Positions 64-29,512 of a DNA stretch of 37,458 nt are shown here, one piece after another. Source of the stretch: Omnitrophica bacterium GWA2_41_15 (GTDB lineage Bacteria > Omnitrophota > Gorgyraeia > Gygaellales > UBA12090); the NCBI GenBank assembly GCA_919901925.1, contig CAKKQA010000094.1, positions 1 through 37,458 of the forward strand, written 5' to 3'. The position numbers were made by a program, and so were the translations under genes. The notes under the pieces are model-generated. The model was given only the letters and a program-made list of their open reading frames with translations. It was not told the origin of the DNA and did no database searches. Each line of letters begins with the position of its first letter. Position 1 is the first letter of the stretch.

Positions 64-882
64 TCATCTATCATCTCCATAATTTTTTACAGCGCTTGCG
101 TAGATCTTGTTTGAAATGATCCGCGCCGGTAAAACACGCGAAGCAAAAAACCGCATTTTATTGCCTACTCCGGGTATGATTCTCGCCTTATTCCTGCGTA
201 AACCATCAAGCGCCAGATCCGCCACTTCGCCAGCGGCAATAGCCTTATCCCATTTCTTCTTCTTTCCGCCCGATGCCCGTTCTATAAAATTTGTCGCGGT
301 ATGCCCCGGGTATAGGCCGCTTATATGCACGCCGAACGGCAGCATCTCCATATGCAGGCCGTCGGTAAAACTAAGCACGAAATACTTTGTCGCCCCATAA
401 AGAGTGGATAAGGGCGTGGAAAAAAAAGAGGCGATTGAACCCACATTAAGAATTCCTGTTCCCTGTTTTTTTGTCATCTTAGGCAAAAACGCGCGGCACA
501 AGCTTACCACAGCACTAACATTTACCTCCACCATTGATTCAATTTTATCTTCAGCCATCGGATAAAACTCCCCCATATATCCAAACCCGGCATTATTAAC
601 TAATATGTCGATGTCATACGCTTCCTCTAACCTATTAATGGTGTCTTTAAGTAATTGTTTATCGGAAAAATCCGCAAGAATCCCTTCCGTAGAGCGCCCT
701 GAAATTTCCTTCAATTCCTCAAGCAGGCTGCACATCGCCTCCGGAGACCTCCCGCATGGCAAAACCTTACAGCCATAACGGGCCAGCCTTAAAGAAATCT
801 CTCTCCCGATGCCGGAGGTCGCGCCGGTAATTAACGCTGTCTTATGCGCAAACCAGTCTTCTGTGTTTTTTTTATAAGCCAT
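64..882 (-). CDS. Short-chain dehydrogenase/reductase (DltE/YqjQ-like SDR)
   Basis: TGATSGIG Rossmann motif, NNAGFG, and YGATK (YxxxK) catalytic motif. The ORF track extends to 921, but an internal ATG at 882 (MAYKKNTEDWF...) reduces the overlap with the upstream gene and is the more likely start. Confidence 0.85.
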   Translation of the reverse strand: MAYKKNTEDWFAHKTALITGATSGIGREISLRLARYGCKVLPCGRSPEAMCSLLEELKEISGRSTEGILADFSDKQLLKDTINRLEEAYDIDILVNNAGFGYMGEFYPMAEDKIESMVEVNVSAVVSLCRAFLPKMTKKQGTGILNVGSIASFFSTPLSTLYGATKYFVLSFTDGLHMEMLPFGVHISGLYPGHTATNFIERASGGKKKKWDKAIAAGEVADLALDGLRRNKARIIPGVGNKMRFFASRVLPARIISNKIYASAVKNYGDDR

Positions 883-1864
883 TTGGGCTGTAAATAACGA
901 CTTGACTGCCTTGATTCTCAAATTCGAAAGGGACCAGTAATAAATTCTTCAGTTTGTTTTTAATATTTTCGTGGTCTTGCGGCTTCGCGTAGATAAGCAT
1001 AAACCCGCCGCCCCCTGCCCCCAGGATTTTCCCGCCCAAAGCGCCGGCGTTACGCGCGATATCATATATTCCATCAATATCTTTGTTAGAGACCTTGTCG
1101 GAAAGGCTGCGTTTTAATTTCCAGGATTCATGCAGAAGCTTGCCAAATTCCGTCAAATCGGAATTGCCGGTTAAAATAGATATAGACTGATCAACCATTT
1201 GATGAATAGCGGACAATTCTTTTTTGGTTTTGTCTATCCGGATAATCTGCGCCTTTGCCACATCAGAAGCAATTCTTGAGAAACCGGTAAAAAATAATAA
1301 CAAGTGGCTTTTAAAATCTTTAAGCCTTGCTTTATCCAAGATTATCGGGGCTACCTTAAAAGTATTATCGACGTGAAATGTAACTTTGTTGAAACCGCCA
1401 AACGAGGCGGCAATCTGATCTTGAGACCCGACATTTTCCTTTATCATATTATGCTCTATATGAATGGACTCTGATGCCAGCTTTTCCTTAGTCACCATCT
1501 TCCCCTTTAAGCCATATAAAGCATGCAATAACCCTACGGTAAAAGCAGAACTTGAGCCAAGCCCTGACCGCGCGGGAAGGTCTCCGTCATGATGCACTTC
1601 TAACCCTTCCTCCACATCCATAAACCTGAATATTTCCCTGACCGCGGGATGCATAATCTCATCCAACCTGCTGACCGATTCGGATTTTGAATAGACAATA
1701 CGATGTTTATATTCAAAAAACGGAGGAAGTTTGCGGCAGCTTATATAGCAGTATTTATCAATAGTTGTAGAAACAACCACACCGCCGTTTTCTTTATACC
1801 AGGCCGGATAATCCGTCCCGCCTCCAAAGAATGAAATCCTGAACGGGGTTCTGGTAATAATCAT
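872..1864 (-). CDS. hddA: GHMP kinase, D-glycero-D-manno-heptose 7-phosphate kinase-like (HddA family)
   Basis: N-terminal TRTPFRISFFGGGTDYPAWY, GHMP motif DLPARSGLGSSSAF, C-terminal GGKILGAGGGGFML; typical HddA-family layout. Confidence 0.8.
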   Translation of the reverse strand: MIITRTPFRISFFGGGTDYPAWYKENGGVVVSTTIDKYCYISCRKLPPFFEYKHRIVYSKSESVSRLDEIMHPAVREIFRFMDVEEGLEVHHDGDLPARSGLGSSSAFTVGLLHALYGLKGKMVTKEKLASESIHIEHNMIKENVGSQDQIAASFGGFNKVTFHVDNTFKVAPIILDKARLKDFKSHLLLFFTGFSRIASDVAKAQIIRIDKTKKELSAIHQMVDQSISILTGNSDLTEFGKLLHESWKLKRSLSDKVSNKDIDGIYDIARNAGALGGKILGAGGGGFMLIYAKPQDHENIKNKLKNLLLVPFEFENQGSQVVIYSPNGL

Positions 1865-2846: not shown

Positions 2847-3830
2847 TTACTTTTCAGGCCCTTCAGTAAAAACGTTATACCTTTTACCGACAGAATCCCT
2901 GTTTTCTAAATACCAGGCCATTGTATCTTTTATGCCCTCTTCTATCGTTATCTGCGGCTTAAAACCAATAGACCTTGCCCGGGTTATATCCATCAGCCTT
3001 TTTTTATCTCCGGAAGGCTTGGAAATATCCCAAATTACTTTAGGCTTAAGCTCCAGGTTATCAACAATAAGCTCTACGATCCTCTTAATAGATACCTCGA
3101 TCCCGCTTCCTATATTTACCGCGGACGCGGGCATTTTCTCAAGCGCAAGCAGCATGCCGCTAGCTACATCTTTTGCATGGATAAAATCCCTTATCTGCGA
3201 GCCATCGCCCCACACAGTCAACGGATTCTCACCATCCATTGCGCGTTTGATTAAAGACGGTATTACCATAGCATTGCCGGGGTCAAAATTATCATAAGGC
3301 CCGTAGACATTCGCCGGCCTTACTATTGCGATATTAGAAAACCCATATTCTATTTTGTAAGCCTGCGCCTGTAATTCGCCCATTCTTTTTGCCCAACCGG
3401 CGAACCTGTCGTTTTCAGAGGGAAAGCTTTTCCAGACATCATCCTCATAAAATACTTCTGCCGGTGAATAAACGCCTATAGTTGAAGTATAAAGGTACCT
3501 TTGAACATCGCAAAGCCTGGCAGCCTCCATCATATTGGTATTAAATAATATTGTCGGCACAAAAAAACTGGCCGGTTTTTTCGCTGTCATTGCCGGAGAG
3601 CCTTTTATCCCCACAAGGTTAAAAACAAATTCCATGCCGTCGCAAGCCTTCAGGCAATTATCAAGCCTCGTCAAATCCAGGCGCATAAACTCTGCCTTGG
3701 GATGGCCTCGCGACAGATCATCCAAAGAGACGATCCTCACCTCTGACCCTCTTTCAACAAGCATCCGCACAAGAGGCGTGCCAATAAGCCCTGTGCCCCC
3801 TGTTACCAATATTTTCTTTCCCGCATACAT
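2847..3830 (-). CDS. NAD-dependent epimerase/dehydratase (nucleotide-sugar extended SDR)
   Basis: GGTGLIGTPLV motif, RPANVYGPYDNFDPGNAMVIPSLI, VWGDGSQIRDFIHAKDVASGM. Confidence 0.8.
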   Translation of the reverse strand: MYAGKKILVTGGTGLIGTPLVRMLVERGSEVRIVSLDDLSRGHPKAEFMRLDLTRLDNCLKACDGMEFVFNLVGIKGSPAMTAKKPASFFVPTILFNTNMMEAARLCDVQRYLYTSTIGVYSPAEVFYEDDVWKSFPSENDRFAGWAKRMGELQAQAYKIEYGFSNIAIVRPANVYGPYDNFDPGNAMVIPSLIKRAMDGENPLTVWGDGSQIRDFIHAKDVASGMLLALEKMPASAVNIGSGIEVSIKRIVELIVDNLELKPKVIWDISKPSGDKKRLMDITRARSIGFKPQITIEEGIKDTMAWYLENRDSVGKRYNVFTEGPEK

Positions 3831-3840
3831 AGTTTATCCT

Positions 3841-5859
3841 CTATTTTATAACAGTTACCACCTTCCAGGGCGAACGTTTCAATTCTTTTCTCCAATAATC
3901 CAGTAAATCCTCAAGCGTCTTTTCTAAAGGTATCTGCGGCTGCCAGCCTGTTTCATTTTTGAACTTATCAATGCAGGGAATCTGCAGTGTTACATCCGAA
4001 GGCCTTAATAATTCAGGGTCAACCTTAATTTCAAATTTTTGGCTGGAAAAAGATAATAATATGTCTAAGGCTTCTCCTATAGTTGTTGTCCTGTTTCCGC
4101 CGATATTATAGACCTCCCCGGGCCGGCATTTGTTTACCATTATCCAATACGCCTTTACCGCGTCGCGGACATCGCAGAAAGTGCGCACTGATTTCAAATT
4201 CCCGACGCGGATAACAGGCTCGCTTAATCCTAATTCTCCAGCGGCCGTCTGTTTGGCAAAGAATGACATAGCAAAGGTATCACCCCTGCGCGGGCCTGTG
4301 TTATGCAAAATATTACCTCCTATGCCAGCATGAAACCAATGATTTTCGGTCTCAAAATCCCAAACTTCTTGCGAATACTTTAGGCTTGTTATTTTTATGA
4401 TACTGTTATCGTCTTTTAAAAGCCAACTGCCATTCTTGGTATTCATCTGAGAAAGGCATCTAATTTCAAAATATCTATCATCGCCCCTGTGTTCTACAGT
4501 AATCCTGTATTTTACATTTAACGCGGCTTCAACTAAATAGCATAAACTGGCAGCCAAAATAGGAGATTTAGTTTTAAACCTATAAAATTCGCTTTTAACA
4601 TTGTGACTTTCATCTCCATCTCCAGCATTATACCCGCGTAAAAAAGCTATTTTTGTTTTTTTATCAGCGTTTAGAATAATATTAGGAATTTTTTTATTTT
4701 TGTCTGAAGCGTAACAATCGTAATAAAAACGCCTGGCCATAACAAACGGCTTTCTTAACGATAAACGAAACACGCCATTACCGCTATTTCTTATATCACT
4801 ATTTACCGCTAATCTTTTTAGCAATATCTTTTTGGCTTTTTTTAACTTTACCATGTCTTTATTATCTATTCGCATATGACCGCGGGTAACACATCCTTCG
4901 GCAACAAAAAAACCATAAAGCCATGCTAATTCGCTCGGCATAGAAGTCAATTCTACATTAGGCAAAGAGGTCAATTTAAGTTTATCGTTTATCGTTAATC
5001 TGCCGGCTTTAACTTCTTTACCGGCAGCATTCACTATTGAATGGTTATCTGTTACATCAACAACTGCGCCTCTGCATGCGATTTCCAGCATTTTATGATT
5101 ATTAATAGGATGGCAGGATAAATGTTTTATCTTTGTCCATCTATTATCATTCCATACTTCAAGGCCGCTTCTGGACATATCCCAAATCTGCGTACCATCT
5201 TCAGACATTTTTCCGGATAAGTATCCGCCTTTTTTAAAAGCGCTCCTCATCTCTGAAATATATTTAATATCTATTAAACCGCTTTTTGAATCTCTTAAGA
5301 TAACTGGCGTCCATTTACTTACGCTGTGGGTAAACATCCTAGTGCGTATAGTCCTGATTTTATGCGACAGCCAATACTGCAAGGCAAGCATATCCTCGCC
5401 AACCTTGCTCACTGCATAAGGAGAAGCAGGCCTTAAAGGACATGACTCCTTAATTGGGACATCCTCTTTTGTTACCTGTCCGTACACTTCCGAGGATGAA
5501 CAAATATGCACAATGGGATCTGCCTCATTAATCCTTATTGCCTCAAGCAAGTTTGCCGTGCCGATTATATTTGTCGATAAAGTATGTATAGGCGAATTGA
5601 AACTAGTTAAAACATAGCTCTGCGCGGCTAAATGAAAAATTATATCCGGTTTTATTTCTTTGACAACACGGATAAGCGCGCTTAGATCTATAAGATCTGC
5701 CTCATAAAGCTTTACCTTATTGTAAATATCCGAAAGATTATCCCTGGGGCTCCTCCAACGGCAAATTCCGGAAACCTCATGCTTCTCCTTGAGGCCCAAT
5801 ATATATTCTGCCAAGTGGCTGCCCACAAAACCCGTTATGCCTGTGATCAAAATCTTCAT
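3841..5859 (-). CDS. gmd: GDP-mannose 4,6-dehydratase-family protein interrupted by an in-frame intein
   Basis: N-extein MKILITGITGFVGSHLAEYI...SSSEVYG...SPYAVSK...IRTRMFTH; C-extein TGPRRGDTFAMSFFAKQ...VGNLKSVRTFCDVRDAVKAYW...RPSDVTLQIPCIDKFKNETGWQPQIPLEKTLEDLLDYWR. After removing residues 179-520 the halves read through a normal GMD motif RTRMFTH-TGPRRGD. Confidence 0.88.
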   Translation of the reverse strand: MKILITGITGFVGSHLAEYILGLKEKHEVSGICRWRSPRDNLSDIYNKVKLYEADLIDLSALIRVVKEIKPDIIFHLAAQSYVLTSFNSPIHTLSTNIIGTANLLEAIRINEADPIVHICSSSEVYGQVTKEDVPIKESCPLRPASPYAVSKVGEDMLALQYWLSHKIRTIRTRMFTHSVSKWTPVILRDSKSGLIDIKYISEMRSAFKKGGYLSGKMSEDGTQIWDMSRSGLEVWNDNRWTKIKHLSCHPINNHKMLEIACRGAVVDVTDNHSIVNAAGKEVKAGRLTINDKLKLTSLPNVELTSMPSELAWLYGFFVAEGCVTRGHMRIDNKDMVKLKKAKKILLKRLAVNSDIRNSGNGVFRLSLRKPFVMARRFYYDCYASDKNKKIPNIILNADKKTKIAFLRGYNAGDGDESHNVKSEFYRFKTKSPILAASLCYLVEAALNVKYRITVEHRGDDRYFEIRCLSQMNTKNGSWLLKDDNSIIKITSLKYSQEVWDFETENHWFHAGIGGNILHNTGPRRGDTFAMSFFAKQTAAGELGLSEPVIRVGNLKSVRTFCDVRDAVKAYWIMVNKCRPGEVYNIGGNRTTTIGEALDILLSFSSQKFEIKVDPELLRPSDVTLQIPCIDKFKNETGWQPQIPLEKTLEDLLDYWRKELKRSPWKVVTVIK
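4300..5325 (-). mobile_element. Intein with LAGLIDADG (DOD) homing endonuclease domain, residues S179-N520 of the host ORF (342 aa)
   Basis: Block A SVSKWTPVIL with Ser1; block B VTDNHSIV (TxxH); block C LAWLYGFFVAEG; block D KKIPNIIL; block E FLRGYNAGDGDE; block F/G VWDFETENHWFHAGIGGNILHN followed by +1 Thr. Junction checked on nucleotides: ..ATT TTG CAT AAC | ACA GGC CCG CGC AGG GGT GAT. Confidence 0.93.
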
Positions 5860-5872
5860 TTTTATTTTCCCT

Positions 5873-6916
5873 TTAAAATGGGCCGTTAAACTCCACTTCT
5901 TCTATCTTCAAATTTGCCTTTGGTTTCCACTGCCCTGCCTTTGGATACAACATTTTATACGCCTGCGCGGCGATCATTTTCGCATTGGGATAAAAACTGC
6001 CTTCCAGCGCCGGCGTAGTAGGGCAGGGGGTAAACGCAAAGCCCATCCGCTTAAAAATAAAATCCCCGCCGCTGTTATTCTCCATAATCCTTGAAATAAT
6101 CTCGGCGCCGGCGCCGCAAGGAATCCAGGCGTTATCAACGACAATAAGCTTTCTTGTTTTAATGACTGACTTTTCTATTCTTTCCATATCTAACGGGCTT
6201 AAGGTGACAGGGTCAATTACCTCTGCCTCAATCCCTTTTTCCTGCAGGTATCTTTTTGCCCTCAGACATTCTACCGCCATATGAGAAATACCGACTAAAG
6301 TAATATCCCTGCCCCGGCTAAGGATTCTGGCCTTTCCAAAATCCATAGTGAAAGGCCCGCGCGGACAATAGCCTTTCTGATAATATAAAAGCCTATGTTC
6401 AACAAAAATAACCGGGTTATTATCCCTTATGGCGCTGATAAGGCATCCTTTAGCGTCATAAGGAGTAGAAGGAGCGGCAATTTTTAATCCCGGGATATTC
6501 ATAAATAACGGATAAAAACTCTGCGAATGCTGCGGGCCCTGGCCCCAGCTTTTACCGATGATGCAGCGAATCACAACAGGCACGCTAATCTTTCCAGCGT
6601 ACATATAGCACAACTTGCTTGCCATATTAATCAGCTGATTTAACGCCAAAAGCACAAAATCCATCCTGATATGGACATGAATCGGGCGCAAACCGCTCAT
6701 TGCCGCACCGATTGCCAAACCCGTCATTCCATCTTCCGACAACGGCGTATCAAAAACCCTTTCATGGCCGAATCTACCCGCCAACCCCTTGGTTGTGCCA
6801 AGTATTGCCTTAGGGTCATCAACGCCCATGCCCATAACGATAACCGAGGGATCGCGCGACATCTCCTGTTCTGTTGCCTCGCGGATAGCTTCGGAATAAC
6901 TAAGCACTCTTTTCAT
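5873..6916 (-). CDS. TPP-dependent 2-oxoacid dehydrogenase E1 beta-like / transketolase pyrimidine-binding protein
   Basis: SYSEAIREATEQEMSRDPSVIVMGMGV, RVFDTPLSEDGMTGLAIGAAMSGLRPI, GQGPQHSQSFYPLF, PGLKIAAPSTPYDAKG; E1-beta family hallmarks. Confidence 0.88.
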   Translation of the reverse strand: MKRVLSYSEAIREATEQEMSRDPSVIVMGMGVDDPKAILGTTKGLAGRFGHERVFDTPLSEDGMTGLAIGAAMSGLRPIHVHIRMDFVLLALNQLINMASKLCYMYAGKISVPVVIRCIIGKSWGQGPQHSQSFYPLFMNIPGLKIAAPSTPYDAKGCLISAIRDNNPVIFVEHRLLYYQKGYCPRGPFTMDFGKARILSRGRDITLVGISHMAVECLRAKRYLQEKGIEAEVIDPVTLSPLDMERIEKSVIKTRKLIVVDNAWIPCGAGAEIISRIMENNSGGDFIFKRMGFAFTPCPTTPALEGSFYPNAKMIAAQAYKMLYPKAGQWKPKANLKIEEVEFNGPF

Positions 6917-7866
6917 TCCTTAAACACATTCGCGTAAAGCTCTTCTTGCGCGGGAAAAGGGCTTCTCTCGGCAAATTCAAAAGCCTCGCGAATCTCTCCA
7001 TCTATCTTTTTTTCTATTTTTCCTGCGGCAGAGGCGCCTAAAAGCCTTCTGACCTCTAAAAGCTGATCGCGCTTCATAGCCTGCCGGACTTCCTTCTTTT
7101 CTCTATACCCTAAATAAAAATCATCCCCTGGCCCAACATGCTCTTTCCAGCGGCAGGTAATACACTCAATAAAAGCAGGGCCGCGGCCGCTTCTTACTCC
7201 TTTTAACAACCTCTTGGCCGTATTATAAATGCTAAAAATATCATCCCCTATCCTTTGTGCCGGCATCCCGTAAACAGCAGCCCTTTCGCAAATATTATCC
7301 GAATGATGCCTGGAAAGGTGATGCGAATGTATAGCGTAAAGGTTATTTTCACAGACAAACAGCATTGGCAATTTTTTTAAAGCCGCGAAATTCATCGCCT
7401 CATGAAAAGCCCCTTCATCCACCGCTCCATCGCCGAAAAAACTAACCACTGCTGAATCCGATCCTCTATATTTCAATCCATAGGCATATCCTGCTGATAT
7501 TGGTATAGTCGTGCCGACTATCGCCGAAGTGCCCATAACCATATTACCTATATCAATAAGGTGCATTGATCCGCCCCTGCCTCCTGCGCAGCCGGCAGCC
7601 TTACCGTAAAGCTCCGCGATCATCATCTTTAAACTGCCGCCTCTGGCAAGATACATAGCGTGCCCGCGGTAAGTCCCAAAAACCACATCCCGGCCGTTAA
7701 GCGCCGCGCAGACACCAGCAGAAACAGCTTCCTGTCCGATTGAAAGATGGACCGGGCTCTTTATTTTATCCGTGGGATAAACCCTGATTATCTCCTCTTC
7801 TGTCCTACGGATAAGATACAAAGAGGCGTAAAATCTCTCTAATAATTTATAGTTTTTATTTTTCAA
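6913..7866 (-). CDS. TPP-dependent 2-oxoacid dehydrogenase E1 alpha-like protein
   Basis: HLSIGQEAVSAGVCAAL, TYRGHAMYLARGG, GGRGGSMHL, and TPP-binding FFGDGAVDEGAFHEAMNFAALKKLPMLFVCENN. The track ORF begins at ATG 7908 inside the upstream methyltransferase gene; a TTG at 7866 overlapping its TGA (TTGA) is a plausible start. Confidence 0.88.
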   Translation of the reverse strand: MKNKNYKLLERFYASLYLIRRTEEEIIRVYPTDKIKSPVHLSIGQEAVSAGVCAALNGRDVVFGTYRGHAMYLARGGSLKMMIAELYGKAAGCAGGRGGSMHLIDIGNMVMGTSAIVGTTIPISAGYAYGLKYRGSDSAVVSFFGDGAVDEGAFHEAMNFAALKKLPMLFVCENNLYAIHSHHLSRHHSDNICERAAVYGMPAQRIGDDIFSIYNTAKRLLKGVRSGRGPAFIECITCRWKEHVGPGDDFYLGYREKKEVRQAMKRDQLLEVRRLLGASAAGKIEKKIDGEIREAFEFAERSPFPAQEELYANVFKE

Positions 7867-8621
7867 CTTTTCTTTGTGCCTATACCGAACAAATACATCC
7901 CTAAACAATTAGGCCTGTTTACCCCCAAATATAAATAGTCAACGGCCCTGACGAAGAAACTTAATATACCCTGAAAAAATATCATAATGATATTTTTTAT
8001 TCTCAAGCGCGGTTTTATTTTACTGCTAAAAATATTTATCTCCTTAAAATCGCAAACCTGAAATATCTGCCTTAGCGATACCTCCGCTAACCCCGTTTCA
8101 TGGCCCAACACCAGATATCTGGAATATACTCCGCGGATACCCGCGATATTAGGGACCACGACTATTAGTTTTCCTTTGTCTTTCAAGGCATCGCGCAATA
8201 AATCAAACAACTCGATTAAATCGTATTTGGGAAAATGCTCTACCACATTAGAAGCATGGATGACATCGAACCGTTGGCGGTTATTTTTAAGGTATTCAGG
8301 CAAATCTGTTATCATTTCAGCACGGAAACCCATTTTTTTCGCGTTTTCCGCCTGAATAGGATTATATTCGACACCGCTGATATTCTTATAGCCATTTTGC
8401 CTCATAAAAACCATGAACATACCGAAGCCAAAGCCCACATCAAGTATTTCCGCGCAAGGGTCAGCCGGCAATAAGCTATTATAATTGTCTTCGTAAAATT
8501 CAAATAAAAACCTGTGCTTGCGATGAAATTGTCCGCAGGTTAAATTTAAATAAGGGCCGTTTATATCGACAGGCATCCTTCTATAAAGCTCGCATAAAAA
8601 TTGGTTCGCGTTTTTGTCCAT
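7863..8621 (-). CDS. Class I SAM-dependent methyltransferase
   Basis: EILDVGFGFGMFMVFMRQNGYKNISGVEYNPIQAENAKKMG motif I/II; DVIHASNVVEHFPKYDL; DKGKLIVVVPN. Confidence 0.85.
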   Translation of the reverse strand: MDKNANQFLCELYRRMPVDINGPYLNLTCGQFHRKHRFLFEFYEDNYNSLLPADPCAEILDVGFGFGMFMVFMRQNGYKNISGVEYNPIQAENAKKMGFRAEMITDLPEYLKNNRQRFDVIHASNVVEHFPKYDLIELFDLLRDALKDKGKLIVVVPNIAGIRGVYSRYLVLGHETGLAEVSLRQIFQVCDFKEINIFSSKIKPRLRIKNIIMIFFQGILSFFVRAVDYLYLGVNRPNCLGMYLFGIGTKKS

Positions 8622-21316: not shown

Positions 21317-23332
21317 TCATCTTATTATCTCGTATATCCTTACAGACGGATTTTCAAAAACAAGCTTAAGCGTATCTATTTTAGAAAAATCTTTTTTATT
21401 AAAACGTAGACTGTGAATAAAATAATCCGCCCTTATAGACTCGAGCAGTTCCCTCTGCCGTGAAGCATCGACAGAGGTCAGAAATTTATTGACCAAATTC
21501 CACCGGCTGTTCGCTATCTTCCTGTATTCACCAGAAAATTCACGCGTGTCTCCTTCCGCAAAAGCCTGCCTGCCGCTTAAAGCAGTATAGCCATAAAAAG
21601 TAGGCTGTTCCATCTTATATACCTCGTGAGCGAAATATCTTCTGTCAGTAAAAAAGGTCTCGTGGATCCCGGTATTATCTCTCATCCACTGCATAGCAAG
21701 CCACTCATCGTAATTAATGCTTGCGCGCTCATCCCATATCCTTTGCGTTTCCCAAGGAAACCTGCCCCATCCGATTTTTACCCAGTTGTGCATATCCATA
21801 TAAAGAAACCCAGCAGAGAATAACAAAAGCGCTCCCAGCGCGAATTTACTGACGATCTTTTTCTCGCGCAAAATATAGTCCGCGGCGATTACTCCCGGGA
21901 TCAAAAAAACAATCTGCGTATACCATGCGTAATAGATTCTTATCCCCGGAAAATCAAAAAGGCACATCATAGAAATACTTACAAGAAAAAAGAATGCTAC
22001 GAATATAAGGCTGACCTTAAATTGGCCTAAATATTTTCTAAAGTCTCTGCGCACCCAAAAAAGCGCCGCAAAGGTCAAAAACTGCCAATTCAAAAAATAA
22101 TTTAGGATATTACGCGTTAGGCTAGAAAAAAACCTGTAAAAAGGATAAATCATATCGGCATAATTCTTTAAAAAAGCCGTACTCTTCAAGAACGCGTAAG
22201 CCTGTGACCTTGTTGTTTCATAATCATAATATAAATGATGCAGGGTATTATTAAGCATGGTCATCCTAAGTAAAATCAGGCTAATCAATAGGCCTATTCC
22301 TAAAATTATCTGCTTAATCGAAAACGGAAAATATTTCTTGAAAATATTAAGCACAAACAAAAGTAACAGGACAATGGGAATAATAATACCCAGCATAGAT
22401 TTTGTGGCGGTAAAATATGTAAATAAAATTATTAAATAAGCCAGATCCAAATCGCGCTGGCGGTTTAGATAGCTTACGATATAAAACACGAACAAAACAA
22501 ATGCGGGGATACTATAGTAAAGCGTTAAGGGATTAATAAAAAGATGGCCTTGAAGGCCTCTGGCCAAAAAGGCGCCAGTGGCAAATAAACCGAAGGTAAA
22601 CAGCGTGCTCTGGCGCAAAGAAAACCTGGCAATCCTTAAACCGCCGTAAAAAACTAAAAAGGCCATCATGAACCAATCAAATACCGGCTCAATAAAAAAA
22701 TGAATATAGAAAGGCTGTATCCGTGTGTAACTGTATACCACTGCCTGATATATGTTTTTCAGCATATGATATCCGATCAGGACCCCGGAAAATTTAGATT
22801 CTTCCAAAGGAAACCCCCTGATATACGACCAAACAACATCCAGATTCCAGAGCGAATCCGGATAAAATAACCCGGGATATTCCGGGGTTGGAGGGCTGGA
22901 AGGGATAATAAAAAACCTAAACACAATCACGGAACAAAATACATAAAAAAGCATGAATACCGCGTTAGCTAAACCTTCTTCCTGATACTCCTTCACCTTG
23001 CGCTCTCGAATTAATCTGACAACAGCCAAGCCTGAAATAACAAGCACCAAACACTCCGCATATTTAAAACTGAATAGTTTTCCTATCCAGCTTAAAATTA
23101 ACATAGCTATAATGCTTACGGGATAGCCAAAAATAAAACGCTCTATTTTTGTTAATTTTTCTGAAACAAGCCAGCCGCAAAAAATATACCCCGGAAGCAG
23201 CAAGAACAAAATCTGAAAAATGGCATACTTAATAATATCAAGCCTTAAGAATGCGAAATTCAGGGATAGATAAACATACGCCAAAACTAAAGGTAGAATT
23301 ATATAGCATTGTTTTAACCGTAAAACAGCCAT
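21317..23332 (-). CDS. Large polytopic membrane protein with soluble C-terminal domain (possible GT-C-like/oligosaccharide-processing protein)
   Basis: 671 aa with many hydrophobic helices; N-terminal LLLPGYIFCGWLVSEKLTKIERFIFGYPVSIIAML; soluble C-terminus ERASINYDEWLAMQWMRDNTGIHETFFTDRRYFAH. Confidence 0.65.
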   Translation of the reverse strand: MAVLRLKQCYIILPLVLAYVYLSLNFAFLRLDIIKYAIFQILFLLLPGYIFCGWLVSEKLTKIERFIFGYPVSIIAMLILSWIGKLFSFKYAECLVLVISGLAVVRLIRERKVKEYQEEGLANAVFMLFYVFCSVIVFRFFIIPSSPPTPEYPGLFYPDSLWNLDVVWSYIRGFPLEESKFSGVLIGYHMLKNIYQAVVYSYTRIQPFYIHFFIEPVFDWFMMAFLVFYGGLRIARFSLRQSTLFTFGLFATGAFLARGLQGHLFINPLTLYYSIPAFVLFVFYIVSYLNRQRDLDLAYLIILFTYFTATKSMLGIIIPIVLLLLFVLNIFKKYFPFSIKQIILGIGLLISLILLRMTMLNNTLHHLYYDYETTRSQAYAFLKSTAFLKNYADMIYPFYRFFSSLTRNILNYFLNWQFLTFAALFWVRRDFRKYLGQFKVSLIFVAFFFLVSISMMCLFDFPGIRIYYAWYTQIVFLIPGVIAADYILREKKIVSKFALGALLLFSAGFLYMDMHNWVKIGWGRFPWETQRIWDERASINYDEWLAMQWMRDNTGIHETFFTDRRYFAHEVYKMEQPTFYGYTALSGRQAFAEGDTREFSGEYRKIANSRWNLVNKFLTSVDASRQRELLESIRADYFIHSLRFNKKDFSKIDTLKLVFENPSVRIYEIIR

Positions 23333-26580: not shown

Positions 26581-27684
26581 TCAGATAAAATTTGTATGCA
26601 TAGGAGGAGCCCCTTGCGGAGCTTTGTACGCCGCTTTCCCTTGTTTTAAATCCCACAAGAATTCATTTACTTTGTGCTGAAGGCATAGGGTGCCGCAGGC
26701 GCTCTGCGCGTTAAACTTATCCGAGCAAATAGACTCCATAACTTCCGCGTAACGCCTGCTTTGCCATATTTCCTTAAAAGGCGTATCAACAATGTTTCCT
26801 ATATGAAATTTTTTATACTTCGTGTTAAAAAGCATACCGCAGGGGGCAACCAATCCTGAACCTGACATCTGCATTATAAATGCCGGGCCGTAACAGCGGC
26901 TATATTTACGTTTCCCCTCGCTTAGTATTTTAGACCATTTTATTTTCACTTGATACTCATCGTTAGAAAAAGCCTCAGCTTCTTTTAAAATACTTTCCAA
27001 GGCAAAATATTCGGGATAGTTAATACCAAGGCTGCCAAATTCATCGTCACTACAATGTTTAATAACCGTATAATCAACCTTTAATTCCCTGCCCAGCTTA
27101 GCCAAAGGGATTACCTGGTCGGACAACTGCGGCAGTAAAACCATTTGCAACCCCAGCGTAACACCGAGGCTTTTTTCATTCTTTATCCTTACACATTCTT
27201 TTATAGTGCTAATGACCTTGTCAAAGCATGCTTCCTTACAACCCATAATTTTCGCGTAACGGCCGGGTTCGGCCGCTGAAATATTAAACCGCAAATAGGT
27301 CAAACAGGGTAATATCTCTTCTAATTTATCGTCTTTAAGCAGAAACCCGTTAGTTCCGAGCGCAACGTCCAAGCCATTCGCTTTTCCTCTTAAAACAGCA
27401 TCATAAAGATGGGGCGAACATGTGCTTTCGCCATCGCTGACAAAACTTACCGCCTTTACCCCAATATCGACCGCATCATCTAAGAACCTGAATATCACAT
27501 CCCGTGTTAATTTTTTTTCATCATTCGCCTGTAACTGTCCATAACAATAAACGCAGCGATACGTGCACCGCCGGGTCAGGGCGCAATCAATAGTAATTGG
27601 GGCTATATGCTCACCCCTCTGCCAGGCCTCTAACCTTTCCCTATGCCAGGATAGCTTATGGCCATCAAGTATTAAATTTTGCAT
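26581..27684 (-). CDS. Radical SAM protein with SPASM-like C-terminal cysteine region
   Basis: IDCALTRRCTYRCVYCYGQLQ (CxxxCxxC); ALGTNGFLL; C-terminal GSGLVAPCGMLFNTKYKKFHIGNIVDTPFKEIWQSRRYAEVMESICSDKFNAQSACGTLC. Confidence 0.9.
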   Translation of the reverse strand: MQNLILDGHKLSWHRERLEAWQRGEHIAPITIDCALTRRCTYRCVYCYGQLQANDEKKLTRDVIFRFLDDAVDIGVKAVSFVSDGESTCSPHLYDAVLRGKANGLDVALGTNGFLLKDDKLEEILPCLTYLRFNISAAEPGRYAKIMGCKEACFDKVISTIKECVRIKNEKSLGVTLGLQMVLLPQLSDQVIPLAKLGRELKVDYTVIKHCSDDEFGSLGINYPEYFALESILKEAEAFSNDEYQVKIKWSKILSEGKRKYSRCYGPAFIMQMSGSGLVAPCGMLFNTKYKKFHIGNIVDTPFKEIWQSRRYAEVMESICSDKFNAQSACGTLCLQHKVNEFLWDLKQGKAAYKAPQGAPPMHTNFI

Positions 27685-29512
27685 TTTTTCCGCGCCTTCT
27701 TATAAAAGTCAATGAATCCCTGGGAATAAGCTCTAAGTTTTTATTATCTTTTGGAAAGTAAAAATCTTTTACCAAATTCAAGTAGCCATTGGCTACCTGC
27801 AGAAAAGAGGGAAAAGAGAGCGCCTTTGATACGCCATGCTCCCTTATGCTTAACCTATAGGGCACTTCGGCAAAAAGGTAATTTTTCTTTATTAGCCTTA
27901 TCAGGATATCAGACTGAAAGAAAAAACTCTTATTCCGAGAGCTTAGTTTTTTTAATACAGCTTTTCTATATATGACGGTGCCGTTTGTGTAATTCAAGTT
28001 AATTAGGAAGGTGGTATTAACTATCGTGCGATAAACAAGAGAAAGTATATTGCGCCACAACGGCCTTACTTCCCGGTTATAAATGAAAGGTATTACAATA
28101 TCAACATGTTCGAGTAATTTACAATAACGTAATATTTCCCACGGATCATTTTCGTTATCTCCGGGCAGCATAACTACAGCTTCCCCTAAAGAATTATCAG
28201 CTCCCTCCCAAAAAGACAAGCCTATGCCGCAAGGATGCTTATGGCTTATAATTTTAACCCGCTTGTCGTTTTCTATAATACCTTGGACAAGGCATGCTGT
28301 CTTATCAGTAGAGCCGTCGTCAATCGCGATAATCTCTCCGTTTATGCCTAACTCATCAAAAGCCAAAAGCGTATTATTAACCGCTTTTGTAATATTATCC
28401 TCTTCATTAAGCGCCGGCATAATCACAGAAATATCATATTTATCTATTAATAGATTTTTCGCGGGCTTGCTTATATTCTTTTTAGATACTACCCTATTTA
28501 CCGCGCTGACAATATGTTCCGTGCCGGGATAATAGGCTTTTTCCAAGGCCGAACTGGCAGGTATCGGCGTATCAGGCGCGGAAACCCTCTCTACAGGGCC
28601 TTTAAAAGAAGCCTTTTCTACGAGCCTGGCGATTATTTCACTCGCGAAACCGCAAGTTATATGGCCTAAATCGGCAACAACAAGGCACCCTGTCTTTGTA
28701 ACAGATTCAATAATCAACCCGTCGTCCAAAGGCTTTAAACAGCGTATGTCTATTATCTCGGCGTCAATTCCCTGGGTTTGTAATTCGTTCGCAGCCTTAA
28801 TTGCAAAATAAACCATCTGCGACGCCGCCACTATCGTAACATCTTTTCCCTGCCTCCTGATGATTCCCTTCCCTATGGGCACCTCATATAGCTCTTCAGG
28901 CACATAGCCTATATAATCATAAATCCAGCGGTGTTCTACAAACAAGACAGGATTACCGTCGCGAACGCTTGAGATCAATAAACCTTTAGCATCATAAGGA
29001 GTTGCCGGCATCACAACCTTTAACCCGGGAACGTGGGTAAACAATGAATGTAATGCCTGCGAATGCTGGGCCGCGGAACCCCATCCCCTGCCAATAATAC
29101 TTCTTATAACCAACCCGGCATTAGCGTGGCCTCCGGTCATATACGACCACTTTGCCGCGTGATTGATAATCTGGTCCATACACATAGGAAGAAAATCCAT
29201 GCGCATATGTATAAATATTGGCCTCAAACCCGCAATTGCCGCTCCTATTGCTACCGCGGTCAAGCCATTTTCGGCAATAGGAATATCCATAACCCTGTCC
29301 TTGCCAAATCTCTCTTGCAATCCTAATGTAGTCCCAAACGTCCCACCCGAATCATCAATCCCTTCACCGATCAAGAAAACACGTTTGTCTGTTTCAAGAA
29401 GTTGGATTTGCGCCTCCTTGATTGCTTCACGATAAGAAAGGCCCCGCAGGCCTTCTTTCGCCAGGGTATTCTCAAAATCCGCTTTTTCCGTATAAACTTT
29501 CGTCCAAGGCAT
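27665..29512 (-). CDS. Fusion protein: E1 beta-like TPP enzyme (about residues 1-345) + family 2 glycosyltransferase (about residues 359-600)
   Basis: Residues 1-345: SYREAIKEAQIQLLETDKRVFLIGEGIDD...RVMDIPIAENGLTAVAIGAAIAGLRPIFIHMRMDF...GSAAQHSQALHSLFTHVPGLKVVMPATPYDAKG. Residues 359 on: YDISVIMPALNEEDNITKAVNNTLLAF...GEIIAIDDGSTDKTACLVQGI...VVMLPGDNENDP. One uninterrupted 615-codon frame. Confidence 0.88.
   Translation of the reverse strand: MPWTKVYTEKADFENTLAKEGLRGLSYREAIKEAQIQLLETDKRVFLIGEGIDDSGGTFGTTLGLQERFGKDRVMDIPIAENGLTAVAIGAAIAGLRPIFIHMRMDFLPMCMDQIINHAAKWSYMTGGHANAGLVIRSIIGRGWGSAAQHSQALHSLFTHVPGLKVVMPATPYDAKGLLISSVRDGNPVLFVEHRWIYDYIGYVPEELYEVPIGKGIIRRQGKDVTIVAASQMVYFAIKAANELQTQGIDAEIIDIRCLKPLDDGLIIESVTKTGCLVVADLGHITCGFASEIIARLVEKASFKGPVERVSAPDTPIPASSALEKAYYPGTEHIVSAVNRVVSKKNISKPAKNLLIDKYDISVIMPALNEEDNITKAVNNTLLAFDELGINGEIIAIDDGSTDKTACLVQGIIENDKRVKIISHKHPCGIGLSFWEGADNSLGEAVVMLPGDNENDPWEILRYCKLLEHVDIVIPFIYNREVRPLWRNILSLVYRTIVNTTFLINLNYTNGTVIYRKAVLKKLSSRNKSFFFQSDILIRLIKKNYLFAEVPYRLSIREHGVSKALSFPSFLQVANGYLNLVKDFYFPKDNKNLELIPRDSLTFIRRRGKNAKFNT

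Follow-up and report, generated by a model that had tools for sequence, protein, structure and literature searches.

The window analysed here, a stretch of 37,458 nucleotides, is contig C94 of a 1.79-Mb, 201-contig Omnitrophota genome. Profile matches identify it as a predicted surface-sugar (polysaccharide) gene cluster, with NeuB, NeuC, NeuD and LegB above their cutoffs and an HddA-like heptose kinase below its own; the latter is a GHMP kinase (872..1864, minus strand) whose best NCBIfam match is the D-glycero-D-manno-heptose 7-phosphate kinase HddA (148 bits, cutoff 600). The gene under study, a dehydratase open reading frame (ORF) that carries an intein (3841-5859, minus strand), is flanked on the same strand by genes for an epimerase/dehydratase-family SDR protein (2847..3830), a dehydrogenase E1-beta-like protein (5873..6916) and a dehydrogenase E1-alpha-like protein (6913..7908). 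In an intein-free Omnitrophota locus, L098, the genes follow one another as in the window (E1-alpha, E1-beta, dehydratase, epimerase, epimerase) at 56-76% identity (E1-alpha 56%, E1-beta 72%, SDR 76%). The window was also considered as a possible phage or prophage, a reading rejected on the grounds of this agreement in gene order and identity with other Omnitrophota. Elsewhere in the cluster, a transketolase/E1-beta-type enzyme fused to a family 2 glycosyltransferase (27665-29512, minus strand) constitutes a second E1-beta-like protein, and a 671-aa ORF (21317-23332, minus strand) has no Pfam match at 1e-5.

The dehydratase ORF is one uninterrupted frame of 672 aa. The first-pass annotation, which gave no strand, had placed an intein at 4300-5325; ORF residues 179-520 map exactly to these positions, and we confirm that they constitute, on the minus strand, a complete 342-aa class-1 LAGLIDADG-bearing intein. 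It starts with SVSKWTPVIL and closes with GGNILHN, and all of the motifs quoted in that annotation were found, namely Ser1, the TxxH motif, both DOD motifs with their acids, the terminal His-Asn and the +1 Thr. Block A, SVSKWTPVILRD, with the nucleophile Ser1, lies at 5290..5325 (here and below, minus strand), as delimited in alignment A4, which comprises the window insert and 68 relatives and which also served for the profile and AlphaFold work; position 1 is Ser, Cys or Thr in all 69 sequences. Block B (5041..5052) reads TDNH, its Thr and His being intein residues T92 and H95. The two LAGLIDADG motifs, supported by Pfam and by the alignment, are Block C, LAWLYGFFVAEG, with catalytic acid E143 (4894..4929), and Block E, FLRGYNAGDG, with catalytic acid D236 (4615..4644). 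Blocks F and G, VWDFETENHWFHAGIGGNILHN, occupy 4300..4365 and end in His341-Asn342, after which the +1 Thr follows directly. The N-extein (5326..5859; dehydratase residues 1-178, the Rossmann half, ending ...RTRMFTH) is 73-82% identical to intein-free orthologues, and the C-extein (3841..4299; residues 521-672, 152 aa, plus stop), delimited by the ORF split and by empty sites, opens with this Thr in TGPRRGD. Ligation of the exteins would give a 330-aa product with a predicted mass of 37.3 kDa, and the intein would have a mass of 39.0 kDa. The joined, intein-free 40-bp site at the extein junction is ...ATGTTTACCCAC|ACAGGCCCGCGCAGGGGTGAT...

Profile and fold comparisons place the insert among known inteins. 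Pfam LAGLIDADG_3 matches two stretches of the ORF (E 9e-11), while Pfam Intein_splicing reaches 20-23 bits, below its cutoff of 35.8, so that the HMM search proposed in the first-pass annotation for residues 179-520 was positive for the endonuclease and sub-cutoff for splicing. A profile built from the 69 sequences matches the solved V-ATPase (5e-21) and KOD polymerase (5e-18) inteins, and the AlphaFold model based on the same alignment (pLDDT 92.2, pTM 0.92) finds in Foldseek the TliVMA intein as its best match (7qsu, E 1e-22), followed by PhoVMA, KOD Pol and PI-PfuI. A Hint fold, whose absence had been named beforehand as grounds for abandoning the intein assignment, is thus present by both approaches. 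Residues T92, H95, D323, H341 and N342 do not vary across the 69 sequences. An endonuclease acid is missing in 9 of the 69 at the first LAGLIDADG motif and in ~10 of the 69 at the second (A4 columns 143 and 236), which suggests probable endonuclease decay in some intein lineages.

Such losses, together with the sub-cutoff Intein_splicing score, would fit a decayed intein that neither splices nor homes, the dehydratase being lost or the fusion tolerated. We consider this improbable, however, as every splicing residue and both endonuclease acids are intact in the window, the frame is single and free of stops, and the viral relatives described below have kept the same splicing residues and both acids; the low HMM score, moreover, is general in these inteins, with Intein_splicing matching just 14 of the 69 sequences even at E 0.01. 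The Pfam splicing model therefore mostly overlooks dehydratase inteins, and a pattern for the HN plus PRRG junction is a cheap way to find them.

The first-pass annotation had assigned the host to the GMD family, which holds at the level of the superfamily and fails for gmd itself, the spliced extein scoring 162 bits against NCBIfam gmd (TIGR01472) with a cutoff of 415. Among solved structures, its best relative is the GDP-D-glycero-D-manno-heptose 4,6-dehydratase 7us5 (284 bits, E 1.3e-83), followed by the GDP-6-deoxy-hexulose reductase 2pk3 (233 bits) and E. coli GMD 1db3 (138 bits), so the proposed alignment of the exteins to GMD structures spoke against GMD. The alignment with 7us5 extends over residues 3-321 and includes the TH(S/T)GPRR loop, which in 7us5 is without an intein. 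GDP-mannose 4,6-dehydratase was accordingly rejected as the host's identity, and the host is best described as a putative GDP-heptose/GDP-mannose-type 4,6-dehydratase.

A search with the spliced extein against 128 genomes of the same order, corresponding to the survey of intein-minus homologues that the first-pass annotation had recommended, recovered intein-free Omnitrophota orthologues with 82, 79, 79, 76 and 73% identity across all 330 extein residues, each encoded by one frame some 330-370 codons long. In four orthologues examined at the junction, ...RTRMF(T/S)H|TGPRRGD... is read without a gap; removal of residues 179-520 from the window ORF restores RTRMFTH-TGPRRGD, as had been claimed, which is the continuous reading of these orthologues. 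The insertion is therefore precise and lies in a conserved site of the host.

Among 384 genomes of the class, the junction HNTGPRRG was found in the window alone, and a gmd-type junction was found in 4. In the viral collection, by comparison, HNTGPRRG occurs on four contigs, L094 (219 kb), L095 (63 kb), L096 (24 kb) and L097 (66 kb), whose inteins are 67, 65, 55 and 60% identical to that of the window, respectively. Terminase large-subunit genes were identified on the contigs of L096 and L097, and L092, which is on the same contig as L096, encodes a phage major head protein. This contig also contains a free-standing ORF (L092 8078-8911, minus strand) with two LAGLIDADG-like motifs (GFMMADG and GVIDGDG), possibly a separate homing endonuclease. 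The viral status of L094 derives from IMG/VR and one strong PHROG match (phrog_8638), and terminase and sheath searches of this 219-kb contig gave no match. L094 carries a cassette resembling that of the window, with the intein-bearing dehydratase, E1-alpha (39% identity), E1-beta (51%) and an epimerase (49%), that is, 39-51% identity outside the intein gene. When the window intein and two gmd inteins were searched against cultured/GenBank phages and plasmids, a single PolB intein was the only match.

The five inteins at this site (window and L094-L097) form one clade with 99/99 support. In the extein tree, by contrast, the window falls within a clade with five intein-free Omnitrophota genes (99/98), while L096/L097 group as sister to a further two intein-free Omnitrophota genes (100/100); intein presence requires 4 changes on this tree, at least 3 of them forced by well-supported branches. 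Inteins are more similar than their exteins in L094-L095 (71 vs 52% identity), window-L095 (65 vs 52%) and window-L097 (60 vs 49%), and equally or nearly equally similar in L096-L097 (66 vs 67%) and window-L096. Third-position GC content (GC3) is lower in the intein than in its own extein in the window (0.30 vs 0.46) and strikingly so in L097 (0.29 vs 0.62 and 0.79); intein and extein are also mismatched in GC3 in L095 and L096. Taken together, the tree conflict, the excess of intein identity and the GC3 mismatch support the view, expected under homing, that a resident gene received the intein horizontally more than once, within a gene pool that phages and Omnitrophota would have in common. 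The direction of transfer, presumably from phage to bacterium, is not rooted, and an intein divergence of at least 33% from the viral relatives implies that the transfer was not recent or that the true donor is unsampled. The 384 class genomes contain a single carrier and so provide no group of closely related bacterial carriers from which recent homing could be demonstrated.

The matching cassette on L094 (dehydratase with intein, E1-alpha, E1-beta and epimerase, at 39-51% identity) raises the alternative that intein and dehydratase moved together as a phage-borne glycan-gene cassette and that the bacterium acquired the whole interrupted gene from a phage. This is already disfavoured, and we regard it as very unlikely: the window extein shares 73-82% identity with intein-free Omnitrophota genes but only 60% with the L094 extein, the neighbouring genes are also nearer to those of Omnitrophota (L098, 56-76%), and the intein differs in GC3 from its own extein. 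Ancient vertical inheritance, in which the intein would date back to an ancestral dehydratase and have disappeared from most lineages, could draw on the possibility of precise intein loss and on pairs with similar intein and extein identities such as L096-L097, yet it seems no less unlikely in the face of the conflict between the two trees, the GC3 mismatch in the window, L095, L096 and L097, and the many exact losses needed given multiple intein-free close relatives. The idea that this is a domain native to the dehydratase family, or else a bacterial intein-like (BIL) Hint domain, has nothing beyond the common Hint fold in its favour and can be dismissed, since orthologues are without the segment at the exact position, the segment has LAGLIDADG motifs and a C-terminal HN followed by the +1 Thr, and insertion in a highly conserved site is usual for inteins, unlike BILs (PMC2814812).

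The reading that we consider probable, with good confidence, is that of a class-1 LAGLIDADG intein in the conserved (F/M)xH-TGPRRG loop, predicted to splice itself and to home, which would have come by horizontal homing and not by descent with the dehydratase gene, its likeliest source being phages with a homologous intein-bearing dehydratase. Class-1 splicing proceeds by an N-terminal acyl shift, attack by the +1 residue, Asn cyclisation and a final acyl rearrangement. In the window protein, an acyl shift at Ser1 would be followed by transesterification through attack of the +1 Thr, the N-terminal bond being activated by T92 and H95; Asn342 would then cyclise with the assistance of His341, and the final rearrangement would create a native His178-Thr bond and hence an intact 330-aa enzyme. 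The endonuclease would recognise and cut the joined DNA around the FTH-TGPRRG codons of intein-free alleles, and repair would copy the intein in. With the insertion in a highly conserved loop, imprecise loss of the intein would be harmful.

The relatives first found within the phylum are inteins in genuine GMDs at FNHE|S...HN|SPRRG. When the exteins are aligned, which requires no gaps, this site falls one residue downstream of FTH|S...HN|TGPRRG in the window. Scanning a GTDB-based collection and viral contigs with a DNA pattern for C-terminal HN-(S/T/C)-PRRGxxFVTRKI yielded 59 prokaryotic loci and 13 viral contigs, all of which show an intein-like C-terminal end ahead of the junction. The 59 loci are distributed over Cyanobacteriota (18), Actinomycetota (12), Vulcanimicrobiota (Eremiobacterota; 8), Chloroflexota (7), Omnitrophota (3) and other phyla, archaea included, with one to few each. 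The whole intein was delimited at 64 loci, each with TxxH, HN and +1 Ser; the first residue is Cys in 41, Ser in 17 and Thr in 6. The six inteins with the rare Thr1 (FNHE|T...; L046, L064, L083, L084, L086 and L089) belong to one clade that has longer inteins (about 390-400 aa). In 2022, the gmd of Thermosynechococcus was noted to contain a type II intein (PMC9403480), and no survey of sugar-nucleotide dehydratase inteins was found in the searchable literature. An intein in a sugar-nucleotide dehydratase thus has precedent and the host class is not unique, which weakens the description of the host as atypical in the first-pass annotation, inteins occurring in the homologous GMD loop in many phyla and phages. 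The window's own insertion site, the heptose-dehydratase FTH|S..HN|TGPRRG, is without a report in the searchable literature; this site and its link to viruses appear to be new. At L099 (2513-3403), an intein-free true GMD gene adjoins an intein-free orthologue of the window dehydratase, so both paralogous target sites can adjoin.

Both intein groups lie just before the nucleophile that the loop offers, the Ser of HES in GMD and the Thr of HTG in the heptose-type enzyme. The dehydratase inteins fall into two reciprocally monophyletic clades (99/99 and 95/95), and the long-branched phage PolB intein falls between them, while a joint clade of both groups is not rejected (AU p 0.33). A common intein ancestor that would have crossed between the paralogues with a one-codon shift is attractive but not proven, and these trees are also compatible with independent invasion of the same loop by two intein groups. 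We advance tentatively, as somewhat short of an even chance, the broader proposal that a single intein lineage has a hot spot in the (N/T)H-(x)-(S/T)-(G)PRRG loop of nucleotide-sugar dehydratases; this lineage may have crossed between the paralogues with a register shift of exactly one residue, always just before the only available Ser/Thr nucleophile, with glycan-gene phages as possible vectors between phyla.

The window's genome contains at least four further inteins on contigs C167, C184, C76 and C169 (L001, L002, L003/L004 and L005/L006), in hosts identified by eye as a UvrD/Rep-type helicase, a pyruvate:ferredoxin oxidoreductase beta-like subunit, GyrA and ribonucleotide reductase; the oxidoreductase subunit is another metabolic host. 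Separately, a 439-aa intein in Omnitrophota radical-SAM proteins (L013, L014 and L016) is inserted inside the iron-sulphur-cluster cysteine motif (HCGYC / HCSYC) and ends in HN|C.

Inteins are thought to be concentrated in replication proteins, and phages are suspected, though rarely caught, as their carriers. Here, a single loop of a metabolic enzyme is the target in more than ten phyla and also in uncultured phages, at positions one residue apart in two paralogous enzymes. The same intein occupies a bacterial gene and phage copies of that gene, whereas close relatives among bacteria have empty sites. Since the intein is shared in this way and the paralogous sites are one residue apart, both phage-mediated transfer and movement between paralogues become directly testable.

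The window thus holds a known kind of element at an apparently new insertion site and in an apparently new host, and the signs that it spread in connection with phages are unusually clear. Its nearest known counterparts by host are the gmd inteins, exemplified by that of Thermosynechococcus (PMC9403480), which share its architecture, its position in the loop of a homologous enzyme, the HN and TxxH motifs and the LAGLIDADG endonuclease, but differ in having true GMD hosts, the junction HE|SPRRG in place of H|TGPRRG and mostly Cys1, and are 23-33% identical to the window intein and form a separate clade in the tree. The best profile and fold matches, the TliVMA, PhoVMA and KOD Pol (PI-PkoII) inteins (7qsu, 7qss, 7qst, 2cw7), likewise consist of a Hint domain with an inserted LAGLIDADG endonuclease, yet they have other hosts and insertion sites and are 15-22% identical to the window intein. 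Finally, the PolB intein of an uncultured 484-kb phage (LR756508) is 26.5% identical over its full length and resembles the window intein in Ser1 and the +1 Thr; it differs in being inserted at YTD|TDS of DNA polymerase B, and it sits on a long branch whose place in the tree is tentative.
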